Assembly (NCBI GenBank): GCA_001596155.1 | Contig: CP014771.1 | Location: forward strand, 5,022,001 to 5,086,000 | Length of the DNA: 64,000 nucleotides | From: Hymenobacter psoromatis | Lineage (GTDB): Bacteria > Bacteroidota > Bacteroidia > Cytophagales > Hymenobacteraceae | Reading direction: 5' to 3' | Part shown: one piece after another, positions 41,953 through 64,000 of the stretch | Numbering within the stretch: position 1 is the first letter of the stretch | Layout: every line of letters starts with the position of its first letter | Position numbers and translations under genes: made by a program | The notes under the pieces: model-generated | What the model saw: the letters and a program-made list of their open reading frames with translations, nothing else | Databases searched by the model: none | Told to the model about the DNA's origin: nothing

Positions 41953-42846
41953 CTACTTAAAATACTGGGCGTATTGCGTCGGCATCGCCTTCAAAGGCTT
42001 TAGCATGATGTCCTTATAAAACACCTCCGCTGCCTCGCTTTGCAACTGAATCTTACCGTGGGTGAGGGGCTGGCGCTGGCCCTTGGTTACGAAGCTGGAG
42101 TGATTGACGGCCATTACCACGCGGCCATTCACAATGTGCAGGCTCTGGCCGTTCACGTTGATGAGCTCCAGCTCGGTCCACTCGCTGGCGGGCAGCGGGG
42201 GGGTAGGGAGCGCGTAGCAGAAGTGGGGGCCGCCGTTGCCCATTGTCACTGCGGCGGCGGCGGGGGTGTAGCGCAAGGTATCGTTGGTGGCCGCGTGGGT
42301 GGCCCGGATGTCGGCCGCCGAATTGGCGATGCACCAGTAGTCGCCCATCGAGTTACCCTTCTGGTGCTCTGATACTTGAAATTCCTGACTTAGCATCCAG
42401 CTGTGCCAGTAGTCCACACCCGGCTCGCCCTGGCTGTCGTAGAGAATGCCGCTGTCGCGCGGCTCCTGCAGGCGGGGCGGCCACTTCTTTTGGCCCCAGC
42501 GCACCTTCAGTTTCAGGTCGTAGTTGGCGTAGTCCTCCCGCGTCACGAGGCAGCCGTAAATCTCGCCGCTGATGCGCAGCACCGGCTCGCCATTCTGCAT
42601 GGTCACCGAAAATACGTTGGCCTCGTTCTTATCGTAGCCGATGGGGGGTAGGGGCTGGCCCTGGGCGTTGGTGGGCGGCTGGCCCTTGTCGCCGGGCACG
42701 TGGCGATGGCTTTGGTAAGTGCGCCAGTGGCTCAGGTTTTTGTCGAGCAGGCGCTCCCAGCCGCCGGGCGTAGGCGGGGGGGTAGGGGGCGGGGCCGAAG
42801 TGCATAGCAGTGCAGCGCTGAGCAGCAGCGAGAAAAAATCAGGCAT
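41953..42846 (-). CDS. DUF1080 (3-keto-disaccharide hydrolase-type) secreted protein
   Basis: A 297-residue protein with a signal peptide (FFSLLLSAALLCTSA) and a concanavalin-like DUF1080 domain: GWERLLDKNLSHW, EPVLRISGEIYGCLVTREDYANYDLKLKVRWG, PRDSGILYDSQGE, WMLSQEFQVSEHQKG, and KIQLQSEAAEVFYKDIML at the end. The GWxxLFDGK start and the SGxxR/QxEA frame are the family pattern. Characterised DUF1080 members cleave 3-keto-glycosides; this is consistent with the GMC oxidoreductase locus divergent from this operon. It is the last clear gene of the minus-strand locus. Confidence 0.9.
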   Translation of the reverse strand: MPDFFSLLLSAALLCTSAPPPTPPPTPGGWERLLDKNLSHWRTYQSHRHVPGDKGQPPTNAQGQPLPPIGYDKNEANVFSVTMQNGEPVLRISGEIYGCLVTREDYANYDLKLKVRWGQKKWPPRLQEPRDSGILYDSQGEPGVDYWHSWMLSQEFQVSEHQKGNSMGDYWCIANSAADIRATHAATNDTLRYTPAAAAVTMGNGGPHFCYALPTPPLPASEWTELELINVNGQSLHIVNGRVVMAVNHSSFVTKGQRQPLTHGKIQLQSEAAEVFYKDIMLKPLKAMPTQYAQYFK

Positions 42847-42958
42847 AAGGTAAATGAATGAAGAGGGAGGGGGTAGGAAAAGCGGGTGCCAATACGGGCT
42901 GCGGGATTATACGCAGCCCGGCAAGTAGGGATAAATTAGCGCGGTCGGGAATTTGCTA

Positions 42959-43056
42959 GAACGTCATTCCGAGCTGGCCGAGGAATCTCGCCCGCGCCGT
43001 TCGGGTGTCATTCAACGATGCGCGCGAGATTCCTCGGCAAGCTCGGAATGACGTTC
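42959..43056. repeat. Dispersed hairpin repeat, copy 3
   Basis: Arms with GAACGTCATTCCGAGCT and its complement, in the gap between the GntP gene and the DUF1080 gene. Confidence 0.85.
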
Positions 43057-43110
43057 AAATGACTTTTTGCTACTTCTCAAACAGCTGCCGTAGAATGAGC
43101 AGTAGAATTC

Positions 43111-44442
43111 CTACCCCCAGCCCAGCAGCGGCAGCGCCCAATCGAGGGCCAGCACGCCCAGCAGGCCCACCACCGACACGATGGTTTCCATCATCGACCA
43201 CGAGCGAAACGTGTCCTTCACCGACAAGCCGAAGTACTCCTTGAACAGCCAAAACCCGCCGTCGTTCACGTGCGAAAACAGCAGGCTGCCCGCCCCAATG
43301 GCCAGCACCAGCAGGTTAGGGTTGACGGACGAGTGGGCCAGCAGCGGCAGCATCACGCCGGCCGCCGTGAGGCCCGCCACCGTGGCCGAGCCCAGGCACA
43401 CCCGAATGAAGCCCGCGATGAGCCAGCCCAGCACTAGCGGCGGCAGCCCCGTGCCGCGCAGGCTGGTGGCCAATTCCTGGCTCACGCCGCTAGCCACCAG
43501 CGCTTCCTTCAAGGCCCCCGCCCCGCCAATAATGAGCAGAATGGGCGCGATGTCGGCCACGGCCGCGCCAAACGTGCTCATGATGGCCGGCACCGCCCGC
43601 CCCTGCGCCGTGCCCAGGCTAAACGTCGCCACCACCACCGAAACCAGCATCACCACCCCAGGGTCGGCCAGCAGCGTGAGGCCCGCGCCCAGCGCGCCGC
43701 CGGCCGGCACCAGCGCTTGGGCCGCCAGCACCACCGCCAGCACCAGCACCGGCAGCAGCGACGATAAAAAGCTATTAAGCCGCCCCGGCCGCGGCCCGGC
43801 CGCCTCGGGCTCAGCCACCAGCCCCGGCGGGGGCCGCGACACGATGCCCCGCAGCGTGCGCGCATACAGCGGCCCGGCCAGCACCACGGCCGGCACCGCC
43901 ACCACCAGCCCATACACAAACGTGAGCCCCAAATTGGCGTGAAACTGCGCCACCAGCGCCGTCGGGGCCGGGTGGGGGGGTAGGAAGCCATGTAGCACCG
44001 ACAGCGCCGCCAGCATCGGCAAGCCCACGTACAGCGGCGGTAGCCGGTACTGGTACACCACCGAAAAAATCAGCGGCATCATCAGCAAAAAGCCCACGTT
44101 GTAAAACAGCGGAATACCGATAATAAAACCCGCCCCCAGCATCGTCCACTGCACATTGGCCGGCCCGAAGGTGCTCACCAGCACGCCCGCAATCTGCCGC
44201 GCCGCGCCGCTGTCGGCCACCAGCTTGCCCAGCATAGCACCCAGCACTACCACCAGCGCCACCGAAGCCAGCGTATCGCCAAGGCCCTGCTGCACGGCCG
44301 CCAGCAGCCGGGCGGGGGGTAAGCCCAGCGCCAGCCCTGTCGGCAGCGTCACCAGCAAAAAAGCCAGAAACGCGTTCACCTTGCCCCAACTGATGAGGCC
44401 AATGAGAGCGAGCACGGCCAGCAGGATGATGAGCAGGGTCAT
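43111..44442 (-). CDS. GntP-family gluconate/anion:H+ symporter
   Basis: A 443-residue membrane protein with about 12-14 helices. It shows WGKVNAFLAFLLVTLPTGLALG, MLGKLVADSGAARQIAGVL, and the family's LSVLHGFLPPHPAPTAL and FSHVNDGGFWLFKEYFGLS motifs. GntP proteins import gluconate, idonate or related sugar acids. In this locus it may take up the aldonic or keto-sugar acids formed by the periplasmic oxidoreductase, or a product of GH3 cleavage. It lies downstream of the first GH3 gene on the same strand, separated by a repeat. Confidence 0.95.
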   Translation of the reverse strand: MTLLIILLAVLALIGLISWGKVNAFLAFLLVTLPTGLALGLPPARLLAAVQQGLGDTLASVALVVVLGAMLGKLVADSGAARQIAGVLVSTFGPANVQWTMLGAGFIIGIPLFYNVGFLLMMPLIFSVVYQYRLPPLYVGLPMLAALSVLHGFLPPHPAPTALVAQFHANLGLTFVYGLVVAVPAVVLAGPLYARTLRGIVSRPPPGLVAEPEAAGPRPGRLNSFLSSLLPVLVLAVVLAAQALVPAGGALGAGLTLLADPGVVMLVSVVVATFSLGTAQGRAVPAIMSTFGAAVADIAPILLIIGGAGALKEALVASGVSQELATSLRGTGLPPLVLGWLIAGFIRVCLGSATVAGLTAAGVMLPLLAHSSVNPNLLVLAIGAGSLLFSHVNDGGFWLFKEYFGLSVKDTFRSWSMMETIVSVVGLLGVLALDWALPLLGWG

Positions 44443-44461
44443 GGGTATTTGTGTTAAGTGT

Positions 44462-44618
44462 TAAGAGTTAAGAGTTTACGCGAAGGACGCTTATTATTGT
44501 GAGCGTAGCGCGGTAATCATACCTGAACGGCAGTTGAACAACCAGCGCAGGTGTCGTTCTGGGACGATTACTTCGCTGCGCTCGCAATGACAAACGTCCT
44601 TCGCGTAAACTCTTAACT
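44462..44618. repeat. Large inverted repeat between GH3 and GntP genes
   Basis: Outer arms include an 18-bp perfect match GAGTTTACGCGAAGGACG (left) to its complement (right). Inner arms contain AGCGTAGCGCGGTAAT and its partner. It differs in sequence from the 100-bp family but has the same position and size class. It fills the whole gap. Confidence 0.75.
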
Positions 44619-44626
44619 CCTAACTC

Positions 44627-46915
44627 CTAAAGCGTCAGGCCGCCCCGTTGCCGGATGTCGTCCGAGGCGCTGCCCACCAGCACCTCAAACTGGCCCGGCT
44701 CCAGCACCCATTGCTTTTTGGCTTCGCTATAATACTGAAACGCGGCGGTGGGCAACTGCATGGTGATGGTCTTGCTTTCGCCGGGCTTCAAAAAAACTTT
44801 CTCGAAGCCTTTCAGCTCCTTGTCGGGGCGCTTCACGCTGGCTTTCACGTCGTGGACGTAGAGCTGCACCACTTCCGCGCCGGCCATTTTGCCGGTGTTG
44901 CGCACGGTCAGCTTCACGGTGGCGCTCTGCTTACCGGGCGTCACGGTCAGCTTGCCGTAATCAAACGTGGTGTAGCTCAGGCCGTGACCGAAGGCGAACT
45001 GCGGCGCTACCATATAGGTATCGTAGTAGCGGTAACCCACGAAAATATCGTCCTTATACGTCTCTTTCAGCGGGTCGCCGGGCGTGCTCGGGTATTCGCC
45101 CAGCTTCATGGCGGGCGCGTCGGCGAGCTGCTTGGGGAAGGTGAAGGGCAGCTTACCCGACGGGTTTACGTCGCCGAACAGCAAGTGGGCCAGCGCGTTG
45201 CCACCTTCCATGCCGGGGTAAAAGGCCTCCACGAGGGCCGGCACCTGCCCGGCCCAGGCCGACACGTCAATCGGCCCGCCGCCCAGCAGCACCACCACGG
45301 TTTTGGGGTTGGCCTTGAGCACGGCCGCCAGCAGCTCATCCTGGCCGAAGGGCATTTTCAGGTCGGGCTTGTCCACGGCTTCGGCGTCGTAGGCGTTGTC
45401 GCTCCACTTGGTGTAGTCGTAGCCGTGGGTCGAGCCGCCCACGTAAATCACCACGTCGGCGGCCTGAGCGGCGGCCACGGCCTGCTGCATCAGCTGCGGG
45501 TCGGATTTCTGGTCGCGGGCAATGGCGTAGCCGGGCGCGAAGGTCACTTTCACCCCGCTGCCCAGGGCCTTCTCGATGCCTTGCAGCGGGGTGATTTCGT
45601 ATTTGGCGCGTAGCTGAGCGCTGCCGCCGCCGCCCGCGTTTTCGCGGGTCGCGTTGGCCCCAATCACGGCCACGGACTTCAGCTTTTTGCTGAGGGGTAG
45701 GAAATTATGTTCATTCCTGAGCAGCACGATGCCTTCCTCGGCCACCTTCAAAGCCGTGGCTTCGTGGGCCGGGGTGTTGTGGGTGCCGGCCGGCCGCTTG
45801 GTGCCGCCGAGCATATCGGTGGCGTACATCACCCGCAGGATGCGCCGCACCTTGTCGTCCACCAGCGGCACGAGGGTAGGGTCTTTTTTAATCGCCGCCA
45901 GCGCCGCGTCGGCCAGGAAAAAGCGGTCGTACAGACTGCGGGCGGGGGTAGGGGCGGCGGTGCTGGCGCTGGCCGCGCTCTGGTCCACGCTGCCGTACAT
46001 CAGGCCCAGGTCGGTGCCCATTTCCAGGTCGGTGCCGTTGCGCAGCGCTTCCTGCGTATTATGCACCGAGCCCCAGTCGCTGATAACCAAGCCTTTGAAA
46101 CCCCATTCCCCCTTCAAGATGTCGTTCATCAAATAGGCATTCTCGGTGGCGTAGGTGCCCCGAAACTTGTTGTACGAGCCCATCAGTGAATACACGCCGC
46201 CCTGCTCCACGGCCGCCTTGAAGCCGGGCAGGTAGATTTCGCGCAACGCCCGCTCGCTCATGTTCACGTCGATGTCGTCGCGGTGGATTTCCTGATTATT
46301 AGCCGCGAAGTGCTTCACGCAGGCTGACACGCCCTGGCTCTGCACGCCCCGGATGTAGCCTACTACCATTTGCGAAACCAGGTAAGGGTCTTCGCTCAGG
46401 TACTCAAAATTTCGCCCGTTCAGCGGCGCGCGGATGATGTTAATGCCCGGCCCCAGGATAATATCCTTGCCCCGCCAGTTGGCCTCGCTGCCCAGCACCG
46501 TGCCGTAGGCGTAGCCCAATTCGCGGTTCCAGGTGGCGGCCAGCGTGTTGTTGGTGGGCAGGTAGGTGCCGGCGTCCTTGTCGCTGGGCGTGGCGTGCCA
46601 GTCGCGGCCCTGCTCGGGGCGAACGCCGTGCGGCCCGTCCGAAGTCATCAGTTCCGGGATGCCCAGACGCGGAATCCCGCCCGCCGCGAAGGCCGAATTA
46701 GCGTGAATCATATGCACCTTTTCTTCCAGCGTCATCTTCTGGAGCAGGGCCGTAATCTGGGCCTCGTGGGTGGTGAGGAGCGCCTGGCGGTTGGCGCTGG
46801 TGGCGGGTTTCATGGTCGGCTTGGCCGGCTTGGTTTGAGCCAGGGCCGGGCTGGCGGCGGCGCAGACCAAAGCTGCGCCCAGCACGGTAGCGAAGCGGGA
46901 AAAGGGATAGGGCAT
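44627..46915 (-). CDS. GH3 beta-glucosidase (secreted)
   Basis: A 762-residue glycoside hydrolase. The signal peptide is at 1-26 (FATVLGAALVCAAASPALA). The (alpha/beta)8 domain shows MTSDGPHGVR, the KHFAANNQE motif (201-209) and the nucleophile Asp280 in GLVISDWGS. The C-terminal sandwich has GGGPIDVSAWAG, then a fibronectin-III-like domain (VTPGKQSATVKLTVRNTGKMAG). It releases glucose or related residues from beta-linked oligosaccharides in the periplasm. It lies downstream of SusCD and a second GH3 gene on one strand. Confidence 0.95.
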   Translation of the reverse strand: MPYPFSRFATVLGAALVCAAASPALAQTKPAKPTMKPATSANRQALLTTHEAQITALLQKMTLEEKVHMIHANSAFAAGGIPRLGIPELMTSDGPHGVRPEQGRDWHATPSDKDAGTYLPTNNTLAATWNRELGYAYGTVLGSEANWRGKDIILGPGINIIRAPLNGRNFEYLSEDPYLVSQMVVGYIRGVQSQGVSACVKHFAANNQEIHRDDIDVNMSERALREIYLPGFKAAVEQGGVYSLMGSYNKFRGTYATENAYLMNDILKGEWGFKGLVISDWGSVHNTQEALRNGTDLEMGTDLGLMYGSVDQSAASASTAAPTPARSLYDRFFLADAALAAIKKDPTLVPLVDDKVRRILRVMYATDMLGGTKRPAGTHNTPAHEATALKVAEEGIVLLRNEHNFLPLSKKLKSVAVIGANATRENAGGGGSAQLRAKYEITPLQGIEKALGSGVKVTFAPGYAIARDQKSDPQLMQQAVAAAQAADVVIYVGGSTHGYDYTKWSDNAYDAEAVDKPDLKMPFGQDELLAAVLKANPKTVVVLLGGGPIDVSAWAGQVPALVEAFYPGMEGGNALAHLLFGDVNPSGKLPFTFPKQLADAPAMKLGEYPSTPGDPLKETYKDDIFVGYRYYDTYMVAPQFAFGHGLSYTTFDYGKLTVTPGKQSATVKLTVRNTGKMAGAEVVQLYVHDVKASVKRPDKELKGFEKVFLKPGESKTITMQLPTAAFQYYSEAKKQWVLEPGQFEVLVGSASDDIRQRGGLTL

Positions 46916-46970
46916 GAGAGGGAGGTAAAAGAGGGGGTAGGCGTTAGGTATTAAAAATCAGTTGGCCTCT

Positions 46971-47070
46971 AAAATGTCATTCCGAGCTTGCCGAGGAATC
47001 TCGCTCGCGTCGTGGGAGGCCCAGGCGACGCGAGCGAGATTCCTCGGCAAGCTCGGAATGACCTTCTTTA
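46971..47070. repeat. Dispersed hairpin repeat, copy 4
   Basis: Arms with TCATTCCGAGCTTGCC and its complement, in the gap between the two GH3 genes. Confidence 0.85.
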
Positions 47071-47096
47071 GTAAAAGTCAGGACTTGCCCAGCGGC

Positions 47097-49511
47097 CTAT
47101 TTCCGGGCCATTTTCAACTCCGCAACGGGCGCTTGCGGGGCCAGCAGCGGCCGGCTTTTCTCTACTACCAACGCGGCGGGCAGCTGGAAGGTGGCGCGCT
47201 GCCTGATGTTCAGAGACGACGCGCCAGCCTGCACCGAGTAGGTGCCCGCGTCGGCCACCCACGACGAAGAAGCGGTGTTGAACGAAGCCAAGTCGGCGGG
47301 CCGCAGGGTGAAAGTCAGCGTCTGCGACTGGCCGGGGGGTAGGAGCTTGGTTTTGGCGAAGGCTTTCAGCTCGCTGGCGGGCTTGTCAAGCGGGCCGGCC
47401 GGGGCGCTCAAGTACAGCTGCACCACTTCCTTGCCGGCCACTTTGCCGGTGTTCGTCACCGGGAGGCTGGCCGTGAGCGAGCCGCTGAACGAAGCCGCGC
47501 TCAGCGTCAGCGGCCCGTAGCCAAACGTGGTGTAGCTCAGGCCGTAGCCAAACTCATACGCCGGCTGCTTCTTAAACGTATTATAGTAGCGGTAGCCCAC
47601 GTAAATGCCCTCCGAGTAGGTGTTTTCCGAAGGCTGGCTGCTCATAAACGACTTCGCCGGCTGGGCCTTGCCGCCGGCCAGCAGCTTGCCCGGAAAATCG
47701 GCCCCGTAGGGAATGTCGGCGTAGCGCATCGGAAAAGTAGTGGCCAGCTTGCCCGAAGGGTTCACCCGGCCGCTCAGCACGTCGGCCACGGAATGGCCGC
47801 CCTCCTGGCCCGGCTGCCAGGCCAGCAGGATGGCATCGGCCTGGCCGCGCCAGCTGGCCACCTCGATGACGCCGCCCACGTTCAGCACTACCACCACTTT
47901 TTTGCCCGCCCCGTGGAAGGCCGCCGCCACCTGTTTGAGCAGCGCCTGCTCGGCGGCTCTGAGGGTGAAGTCATTTGCTACCTGGCGGTCGCCGCCCTCG
48001 CCGGCGCTGCGGCCCAGCGTCAGCACGGCCACGTCGCTGGCCTGGGCCAGCTGCCGCAGCAGCGCCGCCGGCGGGGCCATTTCGGTAATCACCGGCACCG
48101 GCGCAAATGGGCTGGGTTTTGGCGGTAATTTGGCCTTTTCGCCCTTCAGATACTTATCATACGCCTGGCTCAGCGGCGCGCTCACGGCGTAGCCGGCGTC
48201 GCCCAGGCCCTGGGCGATGGAGACGGTGTAGGCGCGGTTCACGTTGCCGCTGCCCGTGCCGCCCGCAATCAGGTTGTAAGAAGTATTGCCAAACAGCGCC
48301 ACCCTCCGGCCGGCGGGCAGGGGTAGGGCCGCGCCCTCGTTGCGCAGCAGCACCATACCGTCGGCGGCGGCCCGGCGGACCACGGCGGCGTCGGCTTTCA
48401 GCGCCGGTTGGCTGGTGTATTTCACGCCTCTGAAAGTGGGCGATTTCAGCACCAACCGCAGCACCTGAATGGCGTTGCTGTCGAGCTGAGCGGCCGAGAG
48501 CTGGCCGCTCTTTACGCCCGCCAGGATGGCTTCGGTCTGGGCGTGGGTGCCGGGCTCCAGCAGGTCGTTACCGGCTTTGAGCTGGGCCACGGCATCGTGG
48601 CCGCCGTACCAATCGGTCATCACCAGGCCCCGGAAGCCCCACTCCTTGCGCAGCAGCTCGGTCAGCAGCTCGGGGTTTTCCGAAGTGTAGGTGCCGTTCA
48701 GCTTGTTATAAGAGGACATCACTGTCCAGGGCCGGCCGCGCTGCACGGCCAGCTTGAAGCCCTTCAGGTAAATCTCGCGCAGCGCCCGCTCGCTCACGTG
48801 CGAGTTGAGCTGCATCCGGTTGAATTCCTGATTATTAACCGCGAAGTGCTTGATGCTGGTGCCCACGCCGTTGCTCTGCACGCCGCCCACCAGGGCCGCC
48901 GCCATGCTGCCGGCGATGAGCGGGTCTTCGGAATAGTACTCGAAGTTGCGCCCGCCCAGCGGGTTGCGGTGAATGTTCATCCCCGGTGCCAGCAGCACGT
49001 CAATGCCAAAATCGCGCACCTCGCCGCCAAACGCTACCCCCACCTGCCGCACCAGCGTCGTGTCCCAGCTCGACGCCAGCAGCGTAGCCACCGGAAAGGC
49101 CGTGGCGTGGTAGGTTTTGGTGGTGTCCGCGCTCCGCTTGGGGTCGATGCGCACGCCCGCCGGGCCGTCCGAGAGCGTGAGCGACGGGATGCCCAGCCGG
49201 GCTATGGCGTGGGTGCGGCCGGCCGCGCCGGGCACTTTCTCGGGCACCTTCTCGTCGCCGGGGTCGCCGGGCGGCAGAATTCCCGCTGGGAAGCCCGCCG
49301 GGTAGAGGCCCATGCCTACCACCAGCTTCACCTTTTCCTCGGTGGTGAGGGCGGCCAGCACGTCTTTCAGGCTGGCCTTGCCGAGCTGGGGTAGGGAAGC
49401 ATCGGCCTGGCCTGCCTCCGTTTTGCCCACCTGCGAGCAGGCGGTAGCGCCCAACAGGCCGAGCGCGGCCACGGCCCATCGGGCCGTTGAAGTAGCTGTT
49501 TTTCTGTTCAT
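47097..49511 (-). CDS. GH3 beta-glucosidase (lipoprotein)
   Basis: An 804-residue GH3 enzyme. A lipobox ends at Cys25 (ALGLLGATAC), so it is probably an outer-membrane or periplasmic lipoprotein. The catalytic domain has LSDGPAGVR, KHFAVNNQE (221-229) and the nucleophile Asp300 in GLVMTDWYGG. The second domain has VVVVLNVGGVIEVASWRG, and an FnIII-like C-terminus follows (ASLPVTNTGKVAGKEVVQLYL). It differs considerably from the neighbouring GH3 protein, so the two probably attack different linkages. It lies 159 bp downstream of the SusD gene. Confidence 0.95.
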   Translation of the reverse strand: MNRKTATSTARWAVAALGLLGATACSQVGKTEAGQADASLPQLGKASLKDVLAALTTEEKVKLVVGMGLYPAGFPAGILPPGDPGDEKVPEKVPGAAGRTHAIARLGIPSLTLSDGPAGVRIDPKRSADTTKTYHATAFPVATLLASSWDTTLVRQVGVAFGGEVRDFGIDVLLAPGMNIHRNPLGGRNFEYYSEDPLIAGSMAAALVGGVQSNGVGTSIKHFAVNNQEFNRMQLNSHVSERALREIYLKGFKLAVQRGRPWTVMSSYNKLNGTYTSENPELLTELLRKEWGFRGLVMTDWYGGHDAVAQLKAGNDLLEPGTHAQTEAILAGVKSGQLSAAQLDSNAIQVLRLVLKSPTFRGVKYTSQPALKADAAVVRRAAADGMVLLRNEGAALPLPAGRRVALFGNTSYNLIAGGTGSGNVNRAYTVSIAQGLGDAGYAVSAPLSQAYDKYLKGEKAKLPPKPSPFAPVPVITEMAPPAALLRQLAQASDVAVLTLGRSAGEGGDRQVANDFTLRAAEQALLKQVAAAFHGAGKKVVVVLNVGGVIEVASWRGQADAILLAWQPGQEGGHSVADVLSGRVNPSGKLATTFPMRYADIPYGADFPGKLLAGGKAQPAKSFMSSQPSENTYSEGIYVGYRYYNTFKKQPAYEFGYGLSYTTFGYGPLTLSAASFSGSLTASLPVTNTGKVAGKEVVQLYLSAPAGPLDKPASELKAFAKTKLLPPGQSQTLTFTLRPADLASFNTASSSWVADAGTYSVQAGASSLNIRQRATFQLPAALVVEKSRPLLAPQAPVAELKMARK

Positions 49512-51161: not shown

Positions 51162-51211
51162 AGAAGTAGAATACAAGAGGGTGGGAGATGAGAGGGGTAG
51201 GGCGCACTGGC

Positions 51212-56657: not shown

Positions 56658-57004
56658 CAGGGGTCTGCGAGCAAGTGAATGATTGGGTGCAGCCACGATG
56701 AGGAAGCAGAGTCAATGAAAAAAATTATAGCATAAATGCTTTTCCTGCTTAAGTTTGGTGAGTAGAAACTTGTTGTTATACTTCCTATTGCCCCTCTTTA
56801 TCAGGATAACGCCTGGCTGAGTGCGGCAGGGGCAATGTCGCCACGCTATAGCCGCTTACTAAGCTACGCCTTATTACATTGCCATGTTATTTGGGCCGCC
56901 AACTGCCCGCGACCTTTGGCTCTGGTGCCGCGTTCGCCGCCTGGGCCACTGGTTTTTCTCACGCGCTTATTTCTTATTCCCACCCACTTCCTAGTAATAG
57001 CTTC
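56658..57004. other. Divergent control region between the two halves of the glycoside locus
   Basis: A 347-bp gap between the sigma promoter and the GMC gene. It is AT-rich around 56715-56800, where a TTTG (about 56755) precedes a TATACTTC (about 56778), a weak promoter-like pair for the plus-strand genes. No gene is seen. Shared regulation of the two divergent operons could act here. Confidence 0.45.
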
Positions 57005-58681
57005 ATGGACAAGAACACGTATGACGCCATCGTCATTGGCTCAGGTATTTCGGGTGGCTGGGCCGCCAAGGAATTGACCGAGAAAGGATTGAAAACGATT
57101 ATGCTGGAGCGCGGGCGCAACATCGAGCATATCAAGGATTATGTCAACGCCAACAAGGCACCCTGGGAGCTGCCCCACCGCGGCGGCCGCACCCAGCAGA
57201 TGATTGCCGACTACCCGGTGCTGGGGCGTGACTACACCCTCAACGAGAGCAACCTCTCGTATTGGGTAAATGAGAAGGAGAGCCCCTACGTGGAGGTGAA
57301 GCCGTTTGACTGGTTTCGGGGCTACCACGTGGGCGGCCGCTCGCTGATGTGGGGCCGGCAGAGCTACCGCTGGAGCGACTACGACTTTGGGGCCAACCTC
57401 AAAGATGGCGTGGCCGTGGACTGGCCCATTCGCTATAAGGACCTGGCGCCCTGGTATAGCCACGTGGAGAAGTTCGCGGGCATCAGCGGCAACCGCGATG
57501 GCCTGGCGCAGCTGCCCGACGGCGACTTTATGCCGCCCATGAACATGAACGTGGTGGAAAAGGACGTGGCCGCCCGCATCAAAAAGCAGTTTCCGAACCG
57601 GCACATGGTCATTGGCCGTACGGCCAACATCACGCAGCCGCTGCAAAGCCGCATCAGCTGCCAATACCGCAATAAATGCTGGCTGGGCTGCCCGTTTGGG
57701 GCGTATTTCAGCACGCAGTCCTCGACGCTGCCCGCGGCCGTGGCCACCGGCAACCTCACGCTGCGGCCGTTTTCCATCGTCACCAAAATCCTGTATGACA
57801 AGGATACCAAGCGGGCGAAGGGGGTAGAGGTGCTCGACGCCGAAACCAACCAGACGGTCGAGTACTACGCCAAGGTTATTTTCCTCAATGCCTCGACCCT
57901 GAACTCGGCCTGGGTGCTGATGAACTCGGCCACCGACGTGTGGCCCGAGGGCCTGGGCAGCAGCAGCGGCGAGCTGGGCCACAACCTGATGGACCACCAT
58001 TTTCGGGTGGGCGCGCACGGCGACGCCGAGGGCTACGACGATAAATACGTGTATGGCCGCCGGGCCAACGGCATCTACGTGCCACGCTTCCGCAACCTGT
58101 TTGGTGATAAGCGCGACTATATTCGCGGGTTTGGCTACCAGGGCAGCGCCGGCCGCGAAGGCTGGAGCCGCGAGATTCCGGAGATGAACATCGGCGGCGA
58201 GTTCAAGGACGCGCTCACCGAGCCGGGCAAGTGGACGATGGGCCTCACCGGCTTTGGCGAAACGCTACCCTACCACGACAACCGCACGTTCCTGGACAAG
58301 ACCAAGAAGGATAAGTGGGGCCTGCCGGTGCTGGCGATGGACGCCGTAATTCGCGACAACGAGCAGAAAATGCGCATCGACATGATGAACGATGCCCAGG
58401 AAATGCTGGAAAAGGCGGGTTTGAAGAACGTGAAGACCTATAATAACGGCTACGCGATGGGCGGCGGCATCCACGAGATGGGCACCGCCCGCATGGGTAG
58501 GGACCCCAAAACGTCGGTGCTCAACGCCCACAATCAGGTCTGGGACGCGCCCAACGTATATGTGACCGACGGCGCGGCCATGACCTCAGCCGCCTGCCAA
58601 AACCCCTCGCTGACCTACATGGCCCTCACGGCCCGCGCCGTGGACCACGCCGTGGGCGAGCTCAAGAAGCAAAACATCTAA
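57005..58681 (+). CDS. GMC-family oxidoreductase (putative glycoside 3-dehydrogenase large subunit)
   Basis: A 558-residue flavoprotein from the ATG at 57005 (MDKNTYDAIVIGSGISGG). The FAD-binding motif is IVIGSGISGGWAAKELTEKG. A Cys-rich stretch (CQYRNKCWLGCPFG) precedes the catalytic half. The GMC C-terminus shows GGGIHEMGTARMG with the catalytic His and NPSLTYMALTARAVDHA with the Asn. Such proteins with a small subunit-3 partner and a cytochrome c oxidise the C3 hydroxyl of glucosides or sugar alcohols in the periplasm. The small subunit follows at 20 bp and the cytochrome gene lies further on. Identity as a glycoside 3-dehydrogenase is inferred from that context. Confidence 0.9.
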   Translation: MDKNTYDAIVIGSGISGGWAAKELTEKGLKTIMLERGRNIEHIKDYVNANKAPWELPHRGGRTQQMIADYPVLGRDYTLNESNLSYWVNEKESPYVEVKPFDWFRGYHVGGRSLMWGRQSYRWSDYDFGANLKDGVAVDWPIRYKDLAPWYSHVEKFAGISGNRDGLAQLPDGDFMPPMNMNVVEKDVAARIKKQFPNRHMVIGRTANITQPLQSRISCQYRNKCWLGCPFGAYFSTQSSTLPAAVATGNLTLRPFSIVTKILYDKDTKRAKGVEVLDAETNQTVEYYAKVIFLNASTLNSAWVLMNSATDVWPEGLGSSSGELGHNLMDHHFRVGAHGDAEGYDDKYVYGRRANGIYVPRFRNLFGDKRDYIRGFGYQGSAGREGWSREIPEMNIGGEFKDALTEPGKWTMGLTGFGETLPYHDNRTFLDKTKKDKWGLPVLAMDAVIRDNEQKMRIDMMNDAQEMLEKAGLKNVKTYNNGYAMGGGIHEMGTARMGRDPKTSVLNAHNQVWDAPNVYVTDGAAMTSAACQNPSLTYMALTARAVDHAVGELKKQNI

Positions 58682-58700: not shown

Positions 58701-59294
58701 ATGAATCGCCGCGATGCCCTCGCCCGCGTGGCCGTCCTGATGGGCGGCTCCGTGATTGGCGCCGAATTTTTCCTCACCAGCTGCTCCTCGCCGGCCAGCA
58801 CCAGTTCAAAGGCTGGGGAAACTGCCGCCAAATTTACCCTCAACCCGACCCAATTAAGTATGCTCGATGAGGTGGGCGACACCATCCTGCCGGCCACCAA
58901 AACGCCGGGCGCGAAAGCGGCCAAAATCGGCAGCTTTATGCTCGTGATGGTGCGCGACTGCTACAAGCCTGCCGACCAGCAAATCTTCCTCACCGGCCTC
59001 ACCAAGCTCGACGAGGCCAGCCAGAAACAAATCGGCAAAGCTTTCATGGCCGCCGACCCCGCCCAGCGCACGGCCGTGCTCACCAAACTCGACGCCGAGC
59101 AAAAGGAATTCACCAAAAACCAGCGCAAAGACGACCCCGGCCACTACTTCCGTATGATGAAGGAGCTGACGCTGCTCGGCTATTTCACCTCCGAGGTGGG
59201 CGCCACGCAGGCCCTGCGCTACCTGCCCGTGCCCGGCCGCTACGACGGCGACGTGCCTTATAAGAAGGGTGACCGCGCCTGGGCCACCAGTTGA
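58701..59294 (+). CDS. Gluconate 2-dehydrogenase subunit 3-like protein
   Basis: A 197-residue protein. The N-terminus NRRDALARVAVLMGG carries a twin-arginine export motif and a lipobox (LTSC, Cys28), so it would be a Tat-exported lipoprotein. The mature helical domain shows LSMLDEVGDTILPATKTPGAKAAKIG and FRMMKELTLLGYFTSEVGATQAL, the subunit-3 pattern. This small subunit helps export and stabilise the GMC flavoprotein, which may lack its own signal. It starts 20 bp after the GMC stop, so the two are co-transcribed. Confidence 0.92.
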   Translation: MNRRDALARVAVLMGGSVIGAEFFLTSCSSPASTSSKAGETAAKFTLNPTQLSMLDEVGDTILPATKTPGAKAAKIGSFMLVMVRDCYKPADQQIFLTGLTKLDEASQKQIGKAFMAADPAQRTAVLTKLDAEQKEFTKNQRKDDPGHYFRMMKELTLLGYFTSEVGATQALRYLPVPGRYDGDVPYKKGDRAWATS

Positions 59295-59313: not shown

Positions 59314-59428
59314 AAAGAACGTTATGCTCATCTGGCGTTCACTTGTCGAAGCATCTCGCTCGCAGCACTAAACCAATCGTTTAACGATGCGAGCGAGATG
59401 CTTCGGCAAGCTCAGCATGACGTTCTTT
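59314..59428. repeat. Dispersed hairpin repeat, copy 5
   Basis: Arms with AAAGAACGTTATGCTCA (left) and a right arm ending CAGCATGACGTTCTTT, slightly unequal because the left arm carries about 10 extra bases. It lies between the subunit-3 and MFS genes. Confidence 0.8.
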
Positions 59429-59460
59429 TATCCCTTTCCCTACCCCCCTCCTTCCCGCCC

Positions 59461-60711
59461 ATGACGCCCGCCATCCGCTTCAAGCTGTCCCTGATGATGT
59501 TCCTGGAGTTTTTCATCTGGGGCGCGTGGTTCGTGACGCTGGGCACCTATCTGCTGAAAAACCTGCACACCAGCGGCACCCAGGTGGGCGTGGCATTCCT
59601 CACGCAGTCCATCGGGGCCATTGTGGCACCGTTCATCATTGGGCTGATTGCCGACCGGTTTTTTTCGGCCCAGAAGATTCTGGGCGTGCTGCATTTGGTG
59701 GGCGCGGTGCTGCTGTGGCGCGCCGCCGGGGCTGCCAGTTTCGACAGCTTCTACCCCAGCATCTTGCTTTATATGATAGTGTACATGCCCACGCTGGCGC
59801 TGGTCAACTCTATCTCGTTCAGGCAGATGAAGAACCCGGAGAAGGAGTTCGCGCCCATCCGGGTTTTGGGCACGCTGGGCTGGATTGTGGCTGGCCTCAC
59901 CATTGGCTGGCTCAACTGGGAGCAGGGTGGGCAGCTGGGCCTCACGTTTCGGATGGCGGCGGGCGCGTCGCTGCTGCTCGGGCTGTTCAGCTTTCTGCTG
60001 CCGCCTACCCCCCCCGTCCGGCGCGAAGGCCCCATTACCATCGGCGAGGTGCTGGGCCTCGAAGCCATTGGCTTGCTGAAGAATCGCTCGTACCTGATTT
60101 TTTTCCTGGCTTCGATTGCCATCTGCGTGCCGCTATCGTTCTACTACGGCTTCACCAACGCGTTTCTCAACGAGGTGGGCATGAAGAGCGCGGCTGGCGT
60201 GCAGACGCTGGGCCAGGTGTCGGAAGTGCTGTTCATGCTGCTCATTCCGGTGTTTTTCGTGCGGCTGGGCGTCAAGAAAATGCTGGCCATCGGCATGTTG
60301 GCCTGGGTAATTCGCTACCTGTTCTTTGCCTACGGCAACGGCGACTCGGCTTACTGGATGCTGATTGTGGGCATCGTGCTGCACGGCGTCTGCTACGATT
60401 TCTTCTTCGTAACGGGCCAGATTTACACCGATAACCTGGCCGGCGAGCAGTCCAAAAGCGCCGCCCAGGGCTTCATTACGCTGGCTACGTATGGGGTAGG
60501 GATGCTCATCGGCTCGCTGCTGGCGGGTCGGGTAGTGGACGCGCATAAAATCGCCGGCGACCTGCACGACTGGCGCGCCATCTGGCTGATTCCGGCGGCC
60601 ATCGCGGCGGCGGTGCTGCTCGTGTTTATGGTGCTGTTCCGCGACCGCAACGCGCCGGTTACCACTGCCGACCTCACCTACGCAGAAACTACGGCCCGCC
60701 TCGAAGTATAA
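59461..60711 (+). CDS. MFS transporter, nucleoside:H+ symporter type
   Basis: A 416-residue membrane protein from the ATG at 59461 (MTPAIRFKLSLMMFLEFF) with about twelve helices. Family marks are FLEFFIWGAWFVTLGTYL, VGVAFLTQSIGAIVAPFIIGLIADRFFSA, RVLGTLGWIVAGLTIGW, and GVCYDFFFVTGQIYTDN. This NupG/XapB-like branch in Bacteroidota often carries sugars or sugar derivatives rather than nucleosides. Here it would import the oxidised or cleaved sugar for the Gfo and TIM enzymes encoded downstream. Confidence 0.9.
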   Translation: MTPAIRFKLSLMMFLEFFIWGAWFVTLGTYLLKNLHTSGTQVGVAFLTQSIGAIVAPFIIGLIADRFFSAQKILGVLHLVGAVLLWRAAGAASFDSFYPSILLYMIVYMPTLALVNSISFRQMKNPEKEFAPIRVLGTLGWIVAGLTIGWLNWEQGGQLGLTFRMAAGASLLLGLFSFLLPPTPPVRREGPITIGEVLGLEAIGLLKNRSYLIFFLASIAICVPLSFYYGFTNAFLNEVGMKSAAGVQTLGQVSEVLFMLLIPVFFVRLGVKKMLAIGMLAWVIRYLFFAYGNGDSAYWMLIVGIVLHGVCYDFFFVTGQIYTDNLAGEQSKSAAQGFITLATYGVGMLIGSLLAGRVVDAHKIAGDLHDWRAIWLIPAAIAAAVLLVFMVLFRDRNAPVTTADLTYAETTARLEV

Positions 60712-60852
60712 GTTCCAGTAATGTATTAAATGTGGAGAATGTGAAAGTGTATTAGGATGTAATAAGTTGATAATCCGGGTTTTTGTCCTCTATATTTTCA
60801 CCTTCCTTATATTCAACCCATTACCTGGTTTTTTAATCCTCTGAACTAGCGC

Positions 60853-62004
60853 ATGAAACTACGACTGGCCATGATTGGGGGCGGGCCGGGTGCCTTTATC
60901 GGGGCCGTGCATCGCATCGCGGCAGCCCTCGATAGCCTGTATGAGCTCACGGCCGGCGCTTTTAGCAGCGACCCTACCAAGTCGCGGGCCGCCGGCGAGC
61001 TCTTGGGCCTGGCACCCGACCGCGTGTATGGCTCTTACCGGGAGCTCATTGCGCGGGAAACGGCGCGCCCCGCCGCTGAGCGTGTGCAGGTAATTGCCAT
61101 CGTGACGCCCAACCACCTGCACTTCGAGCCCGCCCGCCTGGCTTTGGAAAATGGCTTCGACGTCATCCTGGACAAGCCCATGACGTTCTCGCTGGCCGAG
61201 GCCAAGCAGCTGCAAACCGTGGCCGAAGCCAGCGGCCGGCTGCTGTGCCTCACCCACACCTACACTGGCTACCCGATGGTGAAACAGGCTCGTGAAATGC
61301 TGGCCAACAATACGTTGGGTCCAATTCGCAAGGCTTACGTGGAGTATCCGCAGGGCTGGCTGAGCCGGCCCGAGGAGGGCACCGACAACAAGCAGGCCGC
61401 CTGGCGCACCGACCCGGCCCGCAGCGGCATAGCCGGCGCGATGGGCGACATTGGCACCCACGCTTTCAACCTGCTCGAATACGTGACCGGCCTGGAGGTC
61501 GTGAGGCTTTGCGCCGACATCAATACCGTGGTGCCCGGCCGCCGCCTCGATGATGATGGCGCGGTGCTGCTCAAGCTCAGCAATGGCGCTAGTGCGGTGC
61601 TGATAGCCACGCAAATAGCGGCGGGGGAGGAGAACAACGTCAAAATCCGGGTTTACGGCGACCAGGGCGGGCTGGAGTGGCAACAGGTCGATGCTAACAC
61701 CTTGCAGGTGAAGTGGCTGGATAGGCCGGCCGAAATCTGGCGCGCGGGCACGGGCTACGTGGGCGCGGCGGCGCGGCACAACGCCCGCACGCCCGCCGGC
61801 CACCCCGAGGGCTACCTCGAAGCCTTCGCCAACCTCTACCGCAACTTCGCGCTGTGCGTGCTGGCGCGCAACGCTGGCACCCTACCCCCCCCCGAAGCCC
61901 GCGACTACCCCAGCATAAAAGAAGGCGTGCGCGGCATGGCCTTCATCGAAAGCGTTATCGCCTCGGGCCACTCCACGCAAAAGTGGACCGAGTTCACCGT
62001 CTGA
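60853..62004 (+). CDS. Gfo/Idh/MocA-family oxidoreductase
   Basis: A 383-residue NAD(P)-dependent enzyme. The Rossmann motif is LAMIGGGPGAFIGAVHRIAA, followed by VIAIVTPNHLHFEPARLALENGFDVILDKPMTF, with the catalytic Lys in DKP. The C-terminal domain includes GAMGDIGTHAFNLLEYVTGL. Members oxidise or reduce sugars and 3-keto-sugars, and relatives accompany DUF1080 and TIM-barrel genes. A weak promoter-like pair (TTG 60767-60769, TATATTTT 60791-60798) lies in the 141-bp gap before it. The next gene starts 10 bp after it. Confidence 0.95.
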   Translation: MKLRLAMIGGGPGAFIGAVHRIAAALDSLYELTAGAFSSDPTKSRAAGELLGLAPDRVYGSYRELIARETARPAAERVQVIAIVTPNHLHFEPARLALENGFDVILDKPMTFSLAEAKQLQTVAEASGRLLCLTHTYTGYPMVKQAREMLANNTLGPIRKAYVEYPQGWLSRPEEGTDNKQAAWRTDPARSGIAGAMGDIGTHAFNLLEYVTGLEVVRLCADINTVVPGRRLDDDGAVLLKLSNGASAVLIATQIAAGEENNVKIRVYGDQGGLEWQQVDANTLQVKWLDRPAEIWRAGTGYVGAAARHNARTPAGHPEGYLEAFANLYRNFALCVLARNAGTLPPPEARDYPSIKEGVRGMAFIESVIASGHSTQKWTEFTV

Positions 62005-62014
62005 TTTTTGCCCC

Positions 62015-63067
62015 ATGACTACCATCCAAGGCCCCGCCGTTTTTATCGCCCAGTTTATCGGCGACCACGCGCCGTTCAATAGCCTGGATGGCATTTGTGC
62101 CTGGGCCAAAGACCTGGGCTTCAAGGGTATTCAGCTGCCTACGCTTGATAAGCGCTTCATTGACTTGCAGCTGGCCGCCGAAAGCCAGACCTACGCCGAC
62201 GAGCTAACGGGCAAAGTGCGGGCTGCCGGCCTGGAAATCACGGAGTTATCGACCCACTTGCAGGGCCAGCTGGTGGCCGTGAACCCGGCTTATGATAAGC
62301 TGTTCGACGGCTTTGCGCCCGAAGCGGTGCGCAACAACCCGCTGGCGCGCCAGCAATGGGCCACCCAGCAGCTCATTTACGCGGCCAAGGCCTCGCGCCG
62401 GCTGGGCCTGCGGGCGCACGCCACGTTTAGTGGCGCGCTACTCTGGCCAATGGTTTATCCCTGGCCCCAGCGCCCGGCAGGCCTGGTTGAGGAAGGCTTC
62501 GCGGAGCTGGGCCGCCGTTGGCTGCCCATTCTGGATGAGTTTGATAATGAAGGTATTGACCTGTGCTACGAGATTCATGCCGGTGAAGACCTGCATGATG
62601 GCATCAGCTACGAGATGTTCCTGACGGAGGTCAACGACCACCCGCGCGCCTGCCTGCTCTACGACCCCTCGCACTTCGTGCTACAATGCCTTGACTACCT
62701 CGATTATATCGACATCTACCACGAGCGCATCAGGATGTTTCACGTCAAGGATGCCGAGTTTAACCCCACTGGCCGGCAGGGTGTGTACGGCGGCTACCAA
62801 AGCTGGCTGAACCGCGCCGGCCGCTTCCGCTCGCTGGGCGATGGGCAGGTCGATTTCAAGGCTATTTTCAGTAAAATGGCGCAGTACGATTTCCCCGGCT
62901 GGGCCGTGCTGGAGTGGGAATGCGCCATCAAAAACTCGGAAGATGGTGCCCGCGAAGGCGCGCATTTTATCAAAGACCACATTATCCGCGTCACCGACAA
63001 AGCCTTCGACGACTTTGCCGCCGCCGCCACCGATGCCAATTTCAACCGCGCCCTGCTAGGGCTGTAA
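62015..63067 (+). CDS. Sugar phosphate isomerase/epimerase (xylose-isomerase-like TIM barrel)
   Basis: A 350-residue AP-endonuclease-2-type TIM barrel. It has DLGFKGIQLPTLD, IDLCYEIHAGEDLHDG (metal-ligand region), LLYDPSHFVLQ, MFHVKDAEFNPTG and WAVLEWECAIKNSEDG, which supply the Glu/Asp/His ligands of the fold. It probably isomerises or epimerises a keto-sugar made by the neighbouring oxidoreductases. It starts 10 bp after the Gfo/Idh/MocA gene and is tightly co-transcribed with it. Confidence 0.92.
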   Translation: MTTIQGPAVFIAQFIGDHAPFNSLDGICAWAKDLGFKGIQLPTLDKRFIDLQLAAESQTYADELTGKVRAAGLEITELSTHLQGQLVAVNPAYDKLFDGFAPEAVRNNPLARQQWATQQLIYAAKASRRLGLRAHATFSGALLWPMVYPWPQRPAGLVEEGFAELGRRWLPILDEFDNEGIDLCYEIHAGEDLHDGISYEMFLTEVNDHPRACLLYDPSHFVLQCLDYLDYIDIYHERIRMFHVKDAEFNPTGRQGVYGGYQSWLNRAGRFRSLGDGQVDFKAIFSKMAQYDFPGWAVLEWECAIKNSEDGAREGAHFIKDHIIRVTDKAFDDFAAAATDANFNRALLGL

Positions 63068-63080
63068 TCTTCTCTTTCTC

Positions 63081-63563
63081 ATGAAAAAAGCCGTCCTCTT
63101 CCTCAGCGCCTGCGCGCTGCTTACCGCCTGCGACTCGGGCTACAAACCCGATGGCGCCGACACGGCCCGCACCAACGACAAGCCGGGCACCGCCGCCGCC
63201 GCACTAAACAGCGATAGCCTGGCCGACAAGCGCCTGAGCGACGTGAACGCGCACATGCAGGTCGATACTAACGCCATGAAAATCGGCACCGCCCACACCG
63301 GCGGCCTAACGTCGGCGGGCGCTAAGCTGATTGCGGGCTCCGACTGCCTGGGCTGCCACAAGGAAGACGTGAAGCTGGTGGGCCCCGCCTACATTGCCGT
63401 AGCCGAAAAATATCCCGATACCGACGCCAACATTGCCATGCTCGCCAACCGGGTAATTACGGGGGGTAAGGGCCACTGGGGCGACATCCCGATGTCGGCC
63501 CACCCCGCGCTGTCGCTGAGCGACGCCAAGGAAATGACCCGGTATATCCTGAGCCTGAAATAA
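63081..63563 (+). CDS. Lipoprotein c-type cytochrome
   Basis: A 160-residue protein with a lipobox at Cys17 (LFLSACALLTAC), a linker of about 60 polar residues, and one class I cytochrome c domain. The heme site is SDCLGCHKED (Cys89, Cys92, His93) and the axial Met is probably Met138 in WGDIPMSAH. It would take electrons from the GMC/subunit-3 complex in the periplasm and pass them to the respiratory chain. It starts 13 bp after the TIM-barrel gene and is followed directly by a very long hairpin. Confidence 0.95.
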   Translation: MKKAVLFLSACALLTACDSGYKPDGADTARTNDKPGTAAAALNSDSLADKRLSDVNAHMQVDTNAMKIGTAHTGGLTSAGAKLIAGSDCLGCHKEDVKLVGPAYIAVAEKYPDTDANIAMLANRVITGGKGHWGDIPMSAHPALSLSDAKEMTRYILSLK

Positions 63564-63687
63564 GCAGCGAGTAGCGCGAACTTTCCAGTTCGTGCGCGAG
63601 CGCCAGCGAGCAGGCGGCACCGCGCGGCGCGAACGACGATGCTCGCTGCGCTCGCGCACGAACTGGAAAGTTCGCGCTACTCGCTGC
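63564..63687. repeat. Very long hairpin directly after the cytochrome gene
   Basis: Arms of 49 and 48 bases (63564-63612 with 63640-63687) match throughout except for one inserted base, with a 27-base loop. It begins at the base after the stop codon. It could attenuate expression of the next gene or protect the upstream mRNA. It is unrelated in sequence to the GAACGTCAT family. Confidence 0.9.
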
Positions 63688-63742
63688 TTATCAGCTAGCT
63701 GCGCGCGTATTTCTTTTGCCCTACCCCCCCTCCTATACCGCC

Positions 63743-64000
63743 ATGCCCGCGCTCCCCACCCGCCGAACGATGCTCAAGAATGTGCTGGCTGGCACGGCCG
63801 CAGTGGGGGTAGCGGGCGCGCTAAAAGCGACTGCGGCCGCCCCTGCCATGATGCCAACTCCCGCGCTGAAAAACAACATCAAGCAGTCGGTGTGCCGCTG
63901 GTGCTACCAGGATTTATCGCTGGAACAGCTCTGTGTTGCCGCCGAGGAAATGGGCCTCAAGGGGATTGACCTGGTGGGGCCGAAGGAGTGGCCGACGCTG
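63743..64000 (+). CDS. Tat-exported TIM-barrel isomerase (hydroxypyruvate-isomerase-like), partial
   Basis: The first 86 codons are present before the window ends. ATG at 63743; TRRTMLKNVLAGTAAVGVAG is a twin-arginine signal. The mature start KQSVCRWCYQDLSLEQLCVAAEEMGLKGIDLVGPKEWPTL matches the hydroxypyruvate isomerase-like TIM barrels common in Bacteroidota sugar loci. It would act in the periplasm on the same keto-sugars as the GMC complex. Confidence 0.85.
   Translation, partial: MPALPTRRTMLKNVLAGTAAVGVAGALKATAAAPAMMPTPALKNNIKQSVCRWCYQDLSLEQLCVAAEEMGLKGIDLVGPKEWPTL

Follow-up and report, generated by a model that had tools for sequence, protein, structure and literature searches.

The window analysed here is a stretch of 64,000 nucleotides from the genome of Hymenobacter psoromatis (contig CP014771.1, positions 5,022,001 to 5,086,000; G000:C3:5022001-5086000 in our numbering, where G000 is the genome of the window and all other G numbers are relatives), and it contains two gene arrays that meet head to head. 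The minus strand carries a polysaccharide-utilisation locus (PUL) with genes for an ECF sigma factor, FecR, SusC, SusD, two GH3 enzymes, a GntP permease and a DUF1080 protein (DUF1080a). The plus strand carries an oxidative cassette with a GMC flavoprotein, a subunit 3 protein, an MFS permease, a Gfo/Idh/MocA oxidoreductase, the TIM-barrel protein TIM1, a cytochrome c, a further TIM barrel (TIM2) and a second DUF1080 protein (DUF1080b); it extends beyond the end of the window. A Pfam profile search of the window and its flank found every gene family listed by the initial annotation at the place claimed, and the divergent operons described there are a real head-to-head pair, with corrections needed to the start of the GMC gene, the start of the ECF gene and the extent of the operons. 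We lean towards reading the whole as a supra-locus that joins a complete C3-oxidation cassette to a SusC/SusD PUL containing two GH3 enzymes, this PUL being a trimmed relative of the xyloglucan type.

The PUL starts with the ECF sigma factor gene (55984..56580, minus strand, as are all genes of this array; PF08281, PF04542), which most likely uses the GTG at 56580 as start codon, conserved at sequence level in G166, G090 and G053. It is followed by the FecR anti-sigma factor (54815..55864; PF04773, PF16344) and by a SusC TonB-dependent transporter with STN signalling domain (51212..54685; PF07715, PF00593, PF07660), so that ECF sigma factor, FecR and STN-bearing SusC are all present together, as is characteristic of an ECF/FecR-type PUL. 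Next come SusD, a surface glycan-binding lipoprotein (49671..51176; PF07980, PF14322), and two GH3 enzymes of the beta-glucosidase type identified by Pfam: GH3b is lipoprotein-like with a lipobox (47097..49511; PDB matches to the beta-glucosidases 8idz, 746 bits, and 2x40, 717 bits) and GH3a is signal-bearing (44627..46915; best PDB match 8va7 with 626 bits, beta-glucosidases next). A SusC/SusD pair together with GH3 beta-glucosidases is also a feature of xyloglucan loci. The array ends with the GntP-family permease (43111..44442; PF02447, 438 bits) and DUF1080a (41953..42846; PF06439), a divergent protein of the 3-keto-glycoside eliminase/hydratase family.

On the other strand, the GMC flavoprotein, the putative catalytic subunit of a glycoside 3-dehydrogenase (57005..58681, plus strand, as is the rest of the cassette; PF00732, PF05199), most likely starts at the ATG at 57005 and not at the TTG at 56879 because the sequences of relatives align from there; with both starts corrected, the gap between ECF and GMC is about 424 bp. 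Subunit 3 (58701..59294; Gluconate_2-dh3, PF13618, 140 bits) has a twin-arginine motif and a lipobox, and the MFS permease (59398..60711) is of the nucleoside/sugar symporter kind (Nuc_H_symport, PF03825, 389 bits; TIGR00889 with 390 bits, under the cut-off of 446). The Gfo/Idh/MocA oxidoreductase, a putative 3-keto-sugar reductase (60853..62004; PF01408, PF22725), is followed by TIM1 (62015..63067), by homology to PDB 8ro4 a 2-hydroxy-3-keto-glucal hydratase, and by a lipoprotein cytochrome c with lipobox and CLGCH haem motif (63081..63563; PF00034), the likely electron acceptor. TIM2, a TIM-barrel protein with twin-arginine motif, has only its start in the window (63743..64000) and ends at about 64630 (L006:7717-8631, with window position being L006 position + 55999); DUF1080b lies outside the window at about 64769-65560 on the plus strand (L006:8770-9561) and outscores DUF1080a with 147 versus 74.7 bits. 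Opposite-strand genes for a DUF4440 protein and TIM3 come next (L006:9849-18688), and behind them the gene for a DUF6377 protein and a second SusC/SusD pair; TIM3 is a TIM barrel with a twin-arginine-type start, and TIM3-like genes are frequent beside the cassette in relatives.

The closest named relatives of the GMC protein are from Hymenobacter (up to 91% identity), 30 of 43 same-genus genomes, the window's own included, have a GMC match with an E value of 0, and the cassette is complete in all 20 first-round relatives, which were picked from the best GMC matches. Among 80 named GMC loci, many of them interrupted by contig ends, subunit 3 is present in 78, TIM2 in 66, Gfo in 60, TIM1 and cytochrome c in 59 each, the MFS permease in 56 and DUF1080b in 38. 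All 143 distinct GMC-like open reading frames, chosen by their FAD motif, have a C-x5-C-x3-C motif, which we take to be an iron-sulphur site.

What the cassette does is best approached from TIM1, whose full-length match to the 2-hydroxy-3-keto-glucal hydratase 8ro4 scores 574.6 bits, with 238 of 350 residues identical (68%); by sequence homology, this is the strongest single functional assignment at the locus. A hydratase of this kind implies that a 3-keto-glycoside is opened upstream by elimination, and because of this 68% identity to a solved hydratase we consider it most likely that the cassette runs a pathway of a known kind, in which oxidation is followed by elimination, hydration and reduction. 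Export signals, called by simple sequence rules (regular expressions) and not by a trained predictor, are lipoprotein-like in cytochrome c, of the twin-arginine type in TIM2 and TIM3 and Sec-like in DUF1080a and DUF1080b, while GMC, TIM1 and Gfo have none. By this pattern, the steps of oxidation and cleavage would take place beyond the inner membrane and those of hydration and reduction in the cytoplasm, with subunit 3 thought to carry the GMC protein across the membrane. A signal-less GMC protein, a Gluconate_2-dh3 protein with twin-arginine signal and a c-type cytochrome in one operon is also the composition of LacABC/GlycDH-type complexes. The initial annotation had proposed an operon for the C3 oxidation of glycosides; the operon does look like a C3-oxidation pathway, given the hydratase TIM1, the Tat-type (twin-arginine) subunit 3, the cytochrome c and the adjoining DUF1080b, and it is from these operon partners only that we infer C3 regioselectivity of the GMC complex on glycosides. 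Gfo matched curated models far under their cut-offs (levoglucosan dehydrogenase, 95 of 650; BT_2158_fam, 27 of 750). TIM2 was considered as an orthologue of the Agrobacterium eliminase AtOGE, for which there is no sequence support: its search against PDB at an E value of 0.001 did not have the AtOGE structure 8bvk among its matches. The eliminase step may fall to a DUF1080 protein or to another TIM barrel.

DUF1080a is a genuine, divergent member of PF06439, with 74.7 bits against a gathering score of 26.8; BT2157 of Bacteroides belongs to the same Pfam family (PMC9007349, in the text accessible to us), as does DUF1080b. DUF1080a has no match among PDB sequences at an E value of 0.001. By structure, its matches at ranks 1-11 are solved DUF1080-type proteins, among them 9fbe and 8rr2 (3-keto-glycoside eliminase/hydratase), 8v31 and 8tda (3-keto-2-hydroxy-glucal hydratases) and BT2157 (3osd); to the BT2157-type proteins 3osd, 8tda, 9fbe and 8rr2, its identity is about 20-22%. 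The earlier statement that DUF1080 proteins cleave 3-keto-glycosides can be refined: several of the matching solved proteins were deposited as eliminase/hydratases, not as plain hydrolases.

The PULs of relatives are often longer than that of the window and have GH30, GH31 (with PA14 and DUF5110), GH42, GH26 or an esterase amid the same genes. The GH31 in the PUL of G090 has 1021.7 bits to the alpha-xylosidase BoGH31A and 871 bits to Xyl31A (2xvg), and because the GH31 enzymes in the relatives' PULs are of this BoGH31A type, we classify the PUL as xyloglucan-type. A GH31 is found in the PULs of all seven relatives in which PUL and cassette are linked. The fuller form is seen in G166 (GMC 96% identical), where the cassette stands opposite ECF-FecR-SusC-SusD-GH3b-GH30-GH3a-GH42-GH31-GntP-DUF1080a. 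The window/G166 alignment breaks at 44442/44627 and at 46941/47098; together with gene order, the breaks identify the gap at 44443..44626 as the site of GH42 and GH31 in G166, and the gap at 46916..47096 as the site of GH30 in both G166 and G090. The closest relatives of the two arrays are not the same: GMC is closest to G166, and SusC and SusD are closest to G090 (87-88% identity, versus 71-75%), indicating that the two halves differ in history even with the same layout.

A genus search of 120 genomes found window-type SusD (E value at most 1e-180) in 26, the window's own included; of the 25 relatives, 23 also have GMC with at least 85% identity, and G147 (none at this threshold) and G191 (61%) were dropped. 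G124, with GMC in two pieces, is counted among the 23 but was left out of the gene trees; its MFS, TIM1, SusC, GH3a and GH31 matches are in two pieces each as well (L256, L264), perhaps through sequencing errors. PUL and cassette are adjacent in seven of the 23 relatives, in five layouts and all four possible orientations: G166 and G090 are divergent with ECF in between, as in the window; G121 and G146 have the PUL upstream and co-directional, with gaps of about 190 and 60 bp; in G053, everything from ECF to DUF1080b is on one strand, the PUL coming first and its GH31 being separated from TIM3 by 44 bp; in G016 the PUL is downstream and co-directional, ending about 1.6 kb before TIM3; and G130 is convergent with about 135 bp in between. 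If chance linkage is taken as 30 kb in 5.5 Mb (about 0.5% per genome) and the relatives as independent, linkage in seven of 23 has a probability of about 3e-11, or of 4e-6 when only one genome per orientation is counted; as the relatives are in fact not independent, these figures argue against chance placement and nothing further.

On the gene trees, the linked relatives are not clustered: linkage requires six changes on each tree, a number as low in 158 (GMC) and 168 (SusD) of 500 shuffles. The starred branches force two changes on the GMC tree and five on the SusD tree, and so leave the number of independent joinings unfixed. On the GMC tree, the divergent group is a single clade with support 80/79; the SusD tree does not unite it. 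One ancestral joining with subsequent repeated breakage and local inversion is possible.

The DUF4440 gene that adjoins the window's cassette served as a control; in none of the 20 first-round relatives was it found next to the cassette. The next SusC/SusD pair had been considered as a second neutral control and is not clean: relatives of low identity (SusC 33-34%, SusD 26-28%, the DUF6377 protein 43-47%) adjoin the cassette in G044, G068, G127 and G184, so that DUF4440 is the only control. In these four genomes, the second-type SusC/SusD and the DUF6377 protein lie directly upstream of TIM3-GMC and are co-directional with it (L249 in G127, L252 in G184, L084 in G068, L086 in G044), and the front end of the cassette seems exchangeable. 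The idea that PULs in general gather at the cassette was rejected: a SusD is found within 10 kb of GMC in six of 57 named Bacteroidota loci with full flanks (of the 80 loci, the 23 whose flanks are shorter were not counted), and about three to seven are expected on an estimate of 15 to 35 SusD genes per genome (about 17 were scored). Within the genus, any SusD is near the cassette in seven of the 20 first-round genomes versus an expectation of 2 to 3.5, about twice chance; three of these are window-type PULs and the other four (G056, G100, G044, G068) have other SusD genes. Taken together, the gene-order comparisons support the view that the pairing of PUL and cassette in the genus is probably not chance placement, which suggests that they may work as one system.

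A common switch for both arrays, as proposed by the initial annotation, is not supported by the sequence: ECF and FecR are patchy beside the PUL, the promoter-like element of GMC is kept where the PUL is not adjacent, and no element shared by the two operons was found. In flank searches with tblastn (E value 1e-8), ECF/FecR was found beside the PUL in five of the 23 relatives (G021, G053, G090, G166 and G187), three of these being among the seven linked ones; the contig of G176 ends too soon and only about 1.5 kb beyond SusC is readable in G065. The promoter-like element upstream of GMC, TACATTGCC (56875..56883, plus strand; TAnnTTGCC), is preserved in G090 and G166 and also in G021, G100 and G082, in which a window-type PUL is not adjacent; TAnnTTGCC occurs in five of the 21 upstream regions examined and, in addition, in G166. 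In the window, TACATTGCC occurs at 14571, 56875 and 63390 on the plus strand and nowhere on the minus strand. Only where the PUL lies upstream of the cassette and points the same way (G053, G121 and G146) does the anatomy make co-transcription likely.

GntP and DUF1080a have ties to the cassette of their own. Among 12 genus relatives with a good DUF1080a (the weak matches of G056 and G062 were dropped), six have it within 15 kb of GMC in the absence of a window-type PUL. GntP copies of at least 68% identity (those below were dropped) are within 15 kb of GMC in six of 18 genus relatives; GntP also follows the GH31 of the PUL in G078, G125, G124, G141 and G166, and, in another genus, six genomes (G002, G013, G097, G111, G115, G117) have it next to GMC paralogues of about 50% identity. 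Gluconate use was considered as a possible full explanation of GntP; three unlinked GntP copies have mixed neighbours (aminotransferase, biotin carboxylase, GH5, FtsX, peptidase). The GntP-DUF1080a junction appeared to be unique to the lineage of the window, and this was overturned by G166, whose PUL ends with GH42-GH31-GntP-DUF1080a.

If the supra-locus acts as a unit, SusC/SusD would take up beta-glucosidic oligosaccharides, ancestrally derived from xyloglucan, into the periplasm, where the two GH3 enzymes would free glucose by hydrolysis. The GMC/subunit-3/cytochrome c complex would oxidise glucosyl ends or glucosides at C3 and pass the electrons to cytochrome c, and the exported DUF1080 proteins and the Tat-exported TIM barrels would remove the aglycone by elimination and perhaps also hydrate what is formed. 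Import of the 3-keto-sugar, of its glycal or of an acid would fall to the MFS permease and perhaps to GntP. Inside the cell, TIM1 would hydrate 2-hydroxy-3-keto-glucal and Gfo/Idh would reduce 3-keto-glucose to glucose. This scheme is built on gene content, heuristically called export signals, the identity of TIM1 to a hydratase, the fold of DUF1080a and the recurrent physical coupling; the C3 regioselectivity, the substrate, the transporter cargo and the co-expression it assumes are what we infer from these. It is plausible that one and the same molecule may be attacked by both hydrolysis and oxidation.

Several observations weigh against a joint function of the two arrays. PUL and cassette are apart in 16 of the 23 relatives (some assemblies are fragmented and linkage could be missed), and G090, the nearest relative by PUL, has its DUF1080a-GntP about 2 Mb away. 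No promoter element common to the GMC and ECF sides was recognised. Other SusC/SusD pairs near the cassette (G044, G056, G068, G100, G127, G182 and G184) mean that the association is not exclusive. The PUL of the window lacks GH30, GH42 and GH31 and, since Bacteroides ovatus needs GH31 on xyloglucan, its deletion abolishing growth there (PMC4967831, as far as the available text goes), the present function of the window PUL may be reduced. Finally, the best PDB matches of the GMC protein are glucose and fructose dehydrogenases, with pyranose oxidases, cholesterol oxidases and other GMC enzymes being weaker.

The separation in 16 of the 23 relatives and the other SusC/SusD pairs beside the cassette would fit two independent modules, with the PUL controlled by its ECF/FecR/SusC loop, the cassette driven by its own promoter for other glycosides, and no functional meaning in their adjacency; the patchy ECF/FecR, the GMC promoter-like element kept without an adjacent window-type PUL and the chance-level frequency of SusD genes near GMC in general point the same way. 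We nevertheless consider independence rather unlikely: the linkage in seven of 23 relatives, non-independent as they are, is far above 0.5% per genome, all four orientations and the unclustered linkage on the gene trees speak against one inherited accident, the DUF4440 neighbour was not found at the cassette of the 20 relatives, and SusD genes of any type are near the cassette more often than expected within the genus.

The missing hydrolases could instead mean that the PUL is a decaying xyloglucan locus on its way out, from which repeat-associated deletions took GH30 and GH42-GH31, with only the cassette mattering in the window strain. Both gaps do contain inverted repeats, at 44454-44630 in the GH42-GH31 gap (arms of 79 nt, 82% complementary) and at 46973-47065 in the GH30 gap (arms of 40 nt, 98% complementary), and the genome has no close GH31: the best match shares 51% identity with residues 369-950 of the G090 protein and shows no PA14, and the surrounding 20 kb yielded no hit for the window SusC or SusD. 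The best GH30 pieces in the genome are 29-36% identical. Against decay, all remaining PUL genes are open, and SusC, SusD and both GH3s are 82-91% identical to those of G090, as constraint would give; we regard decay as improbable. A palindromic repeat, GAGATTCCTCGGCAAGCTCGGAATGAC, is clustered at 37448-47062, with seven matches (three inverted pairs and one single arm) where none is expected; the GH30 gap and the gap between GntP and DUF1080a contain a pair each. Because GH30, GH42 and GH31 are missing and B. ovatus needs GH31, we do not count the window locus among the xyloglucan utilisation loci: its genes mark it as a trimmed relative of a xyloglucan-type PUL, and the substrate it now acts on is uncertain.

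The PDB matches of GMC, together with the recurrence of GntP, of a gluconate-type permease family, as a neighbour, would be expected if the GMC complex acted elsewhere (on C1 of glucose, on an alcohol, on the precursor of a sugar acid) and the operon did not encode a 3-keto route. This is very improbable: a 2-hydroxy-3-keto-glucal hydratase and a DUF1080 protein in the operon are hard to explain without C3 oxidation and, in the accessible text of PMC9007349, lacABC of Caulobacter matters for lactose and salicin and the nearby DUF1080 gene for lactose.

Beyond the supra-locus as such, a more far-reaching reading is tentative and rather doubtful: a hybrid hydrolytic-oxidative route of Hymenobacter for xyloglucan-type beta-glucans, for which the modular supra-locus, with dedicated DUF1080a and GntP, was assembled repeatedly and in all four orientations, and in which the lineage of the window lost the side-chain hydrolases GH31, GH42 and GH30 but retained the oxidative half, with oxidation and elimination taking over a share of what hydrolysis did.

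Downstream of DUF1080a lies a PD40 (TolB-like) beta-propeller protein with a signal-like N-terminus (39383..40702, minus strand; PF07676). PD40 proteins are recurrent neighbours of GMC cassettes in Mucilaginibacter and others, with 23 of the 80 named GMC loci having one (some flanks are incomplete), and are also close to the DUF1080a orthologue in G100, G080 and G090. The genome of the window has two further related loci: DUF1080-GMC-subunit 3 at 1.375 Mb (L007:8980-12410) and, at 1.118 Mb (L008:7526-10456), a protein in which the DUF1080 domain occurs twice, next to a Gfo/Idh that has a twin-arginine-type start. In Hymenobacter sp. YC55 (L143:755-11677), SusC-SusD-GH13-GH65, a PUL of the alpha-glucan type, is directly upstream of GMC and co-directional with the same cassette, and in Pontibacter qinzhouensis (L150:3-11680) SusD, two PF10091 proteins and a GH3 are co-directional with GMC.

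PULs are usually read as hydrolytic (or lyase) machines. Pathways via 3-keto-glycosides are described as operons for small glycosides (PMC9007349, PMC10628242 and PMC7676230, in the parts available). If the coupling is functional, some Bacteroidota would have the 3-keto route built into a hemicellulose-type PUL as its back end, and substrate predictions based on carbohydrate-active enzymes would miss half of such loci. The several layouts make the question directly testable, as Hymenobacter genomes have these genes in a co-directional array, in a divergent arrangement and at separate places.

In the literature searched (the matches listed, mostly non-subscription), no xyloglucan-type PUL joined to a GMC/subunit-3/DUF1080 cassette is described. 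An alternative broad-specificity glycan pathway was reportedly the subject of a 2024 paper. The main text of a study on xyloglucan loci of root Bacteroidota contains neither "3-keto" nor "DUF1080" by word search (PMC11892949).

Several known systems resemble one half of the locus or the other. The BT2157-type eliminase/hydratases of Bacteroides (3osd, 8tda, 9fbe, 8rr2) share their fold with DUF1080a and differ from it in sequence to the extent given above. LgdA of the Bacillus smithii levoglucosan operon is an NAD enzyme and not a GMC/cytochrome c system. This operon follows the same four-step scheme for another substrate and, as presented in the available text, with no PUL (PMC7676230). Clusters of LacABC and DUF1080 are known from Caulobacter, Pedobacter, Indibacter and Algoriphagus (Price et al. 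2022, PMC9007349), with Caulobacter having a second DUF1080 gene nearby too; they differ in that no SusCD/GH3 PUL is joined to them in the accessible part of that article. The GlycDH - AtOGE - AtHYD - Gfo operon of Agrobacterium (Bitter et al. 2023, PMC10628242, in the sections available) has the same logic of oxidation, elimination, hydration and reduction, with a Tat subunit, a Gfo reductase and a hydratase, the function matched by TIM1; it differs by having AtOGE, to the structure of which TIM2 of the window has no match at the threshold used. The xyloglucan locus of B. ovatus (PMC4967831, in the text available) has TonB-dependent uptake and two GH3 enzymes in common with the window and, with the window's relatives, also a GH31 with PA14; the window differs in having no GH31, GH43 or endo-xyloglucanase among the eight PUL genes scanned (41.9-56.7 kb), in the adjoining ECF/FecR and in the attached oxidative cassette. 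Each half of the locus is known in kind; new are the recurrent coupling of the two and the trimmed copy in the window.

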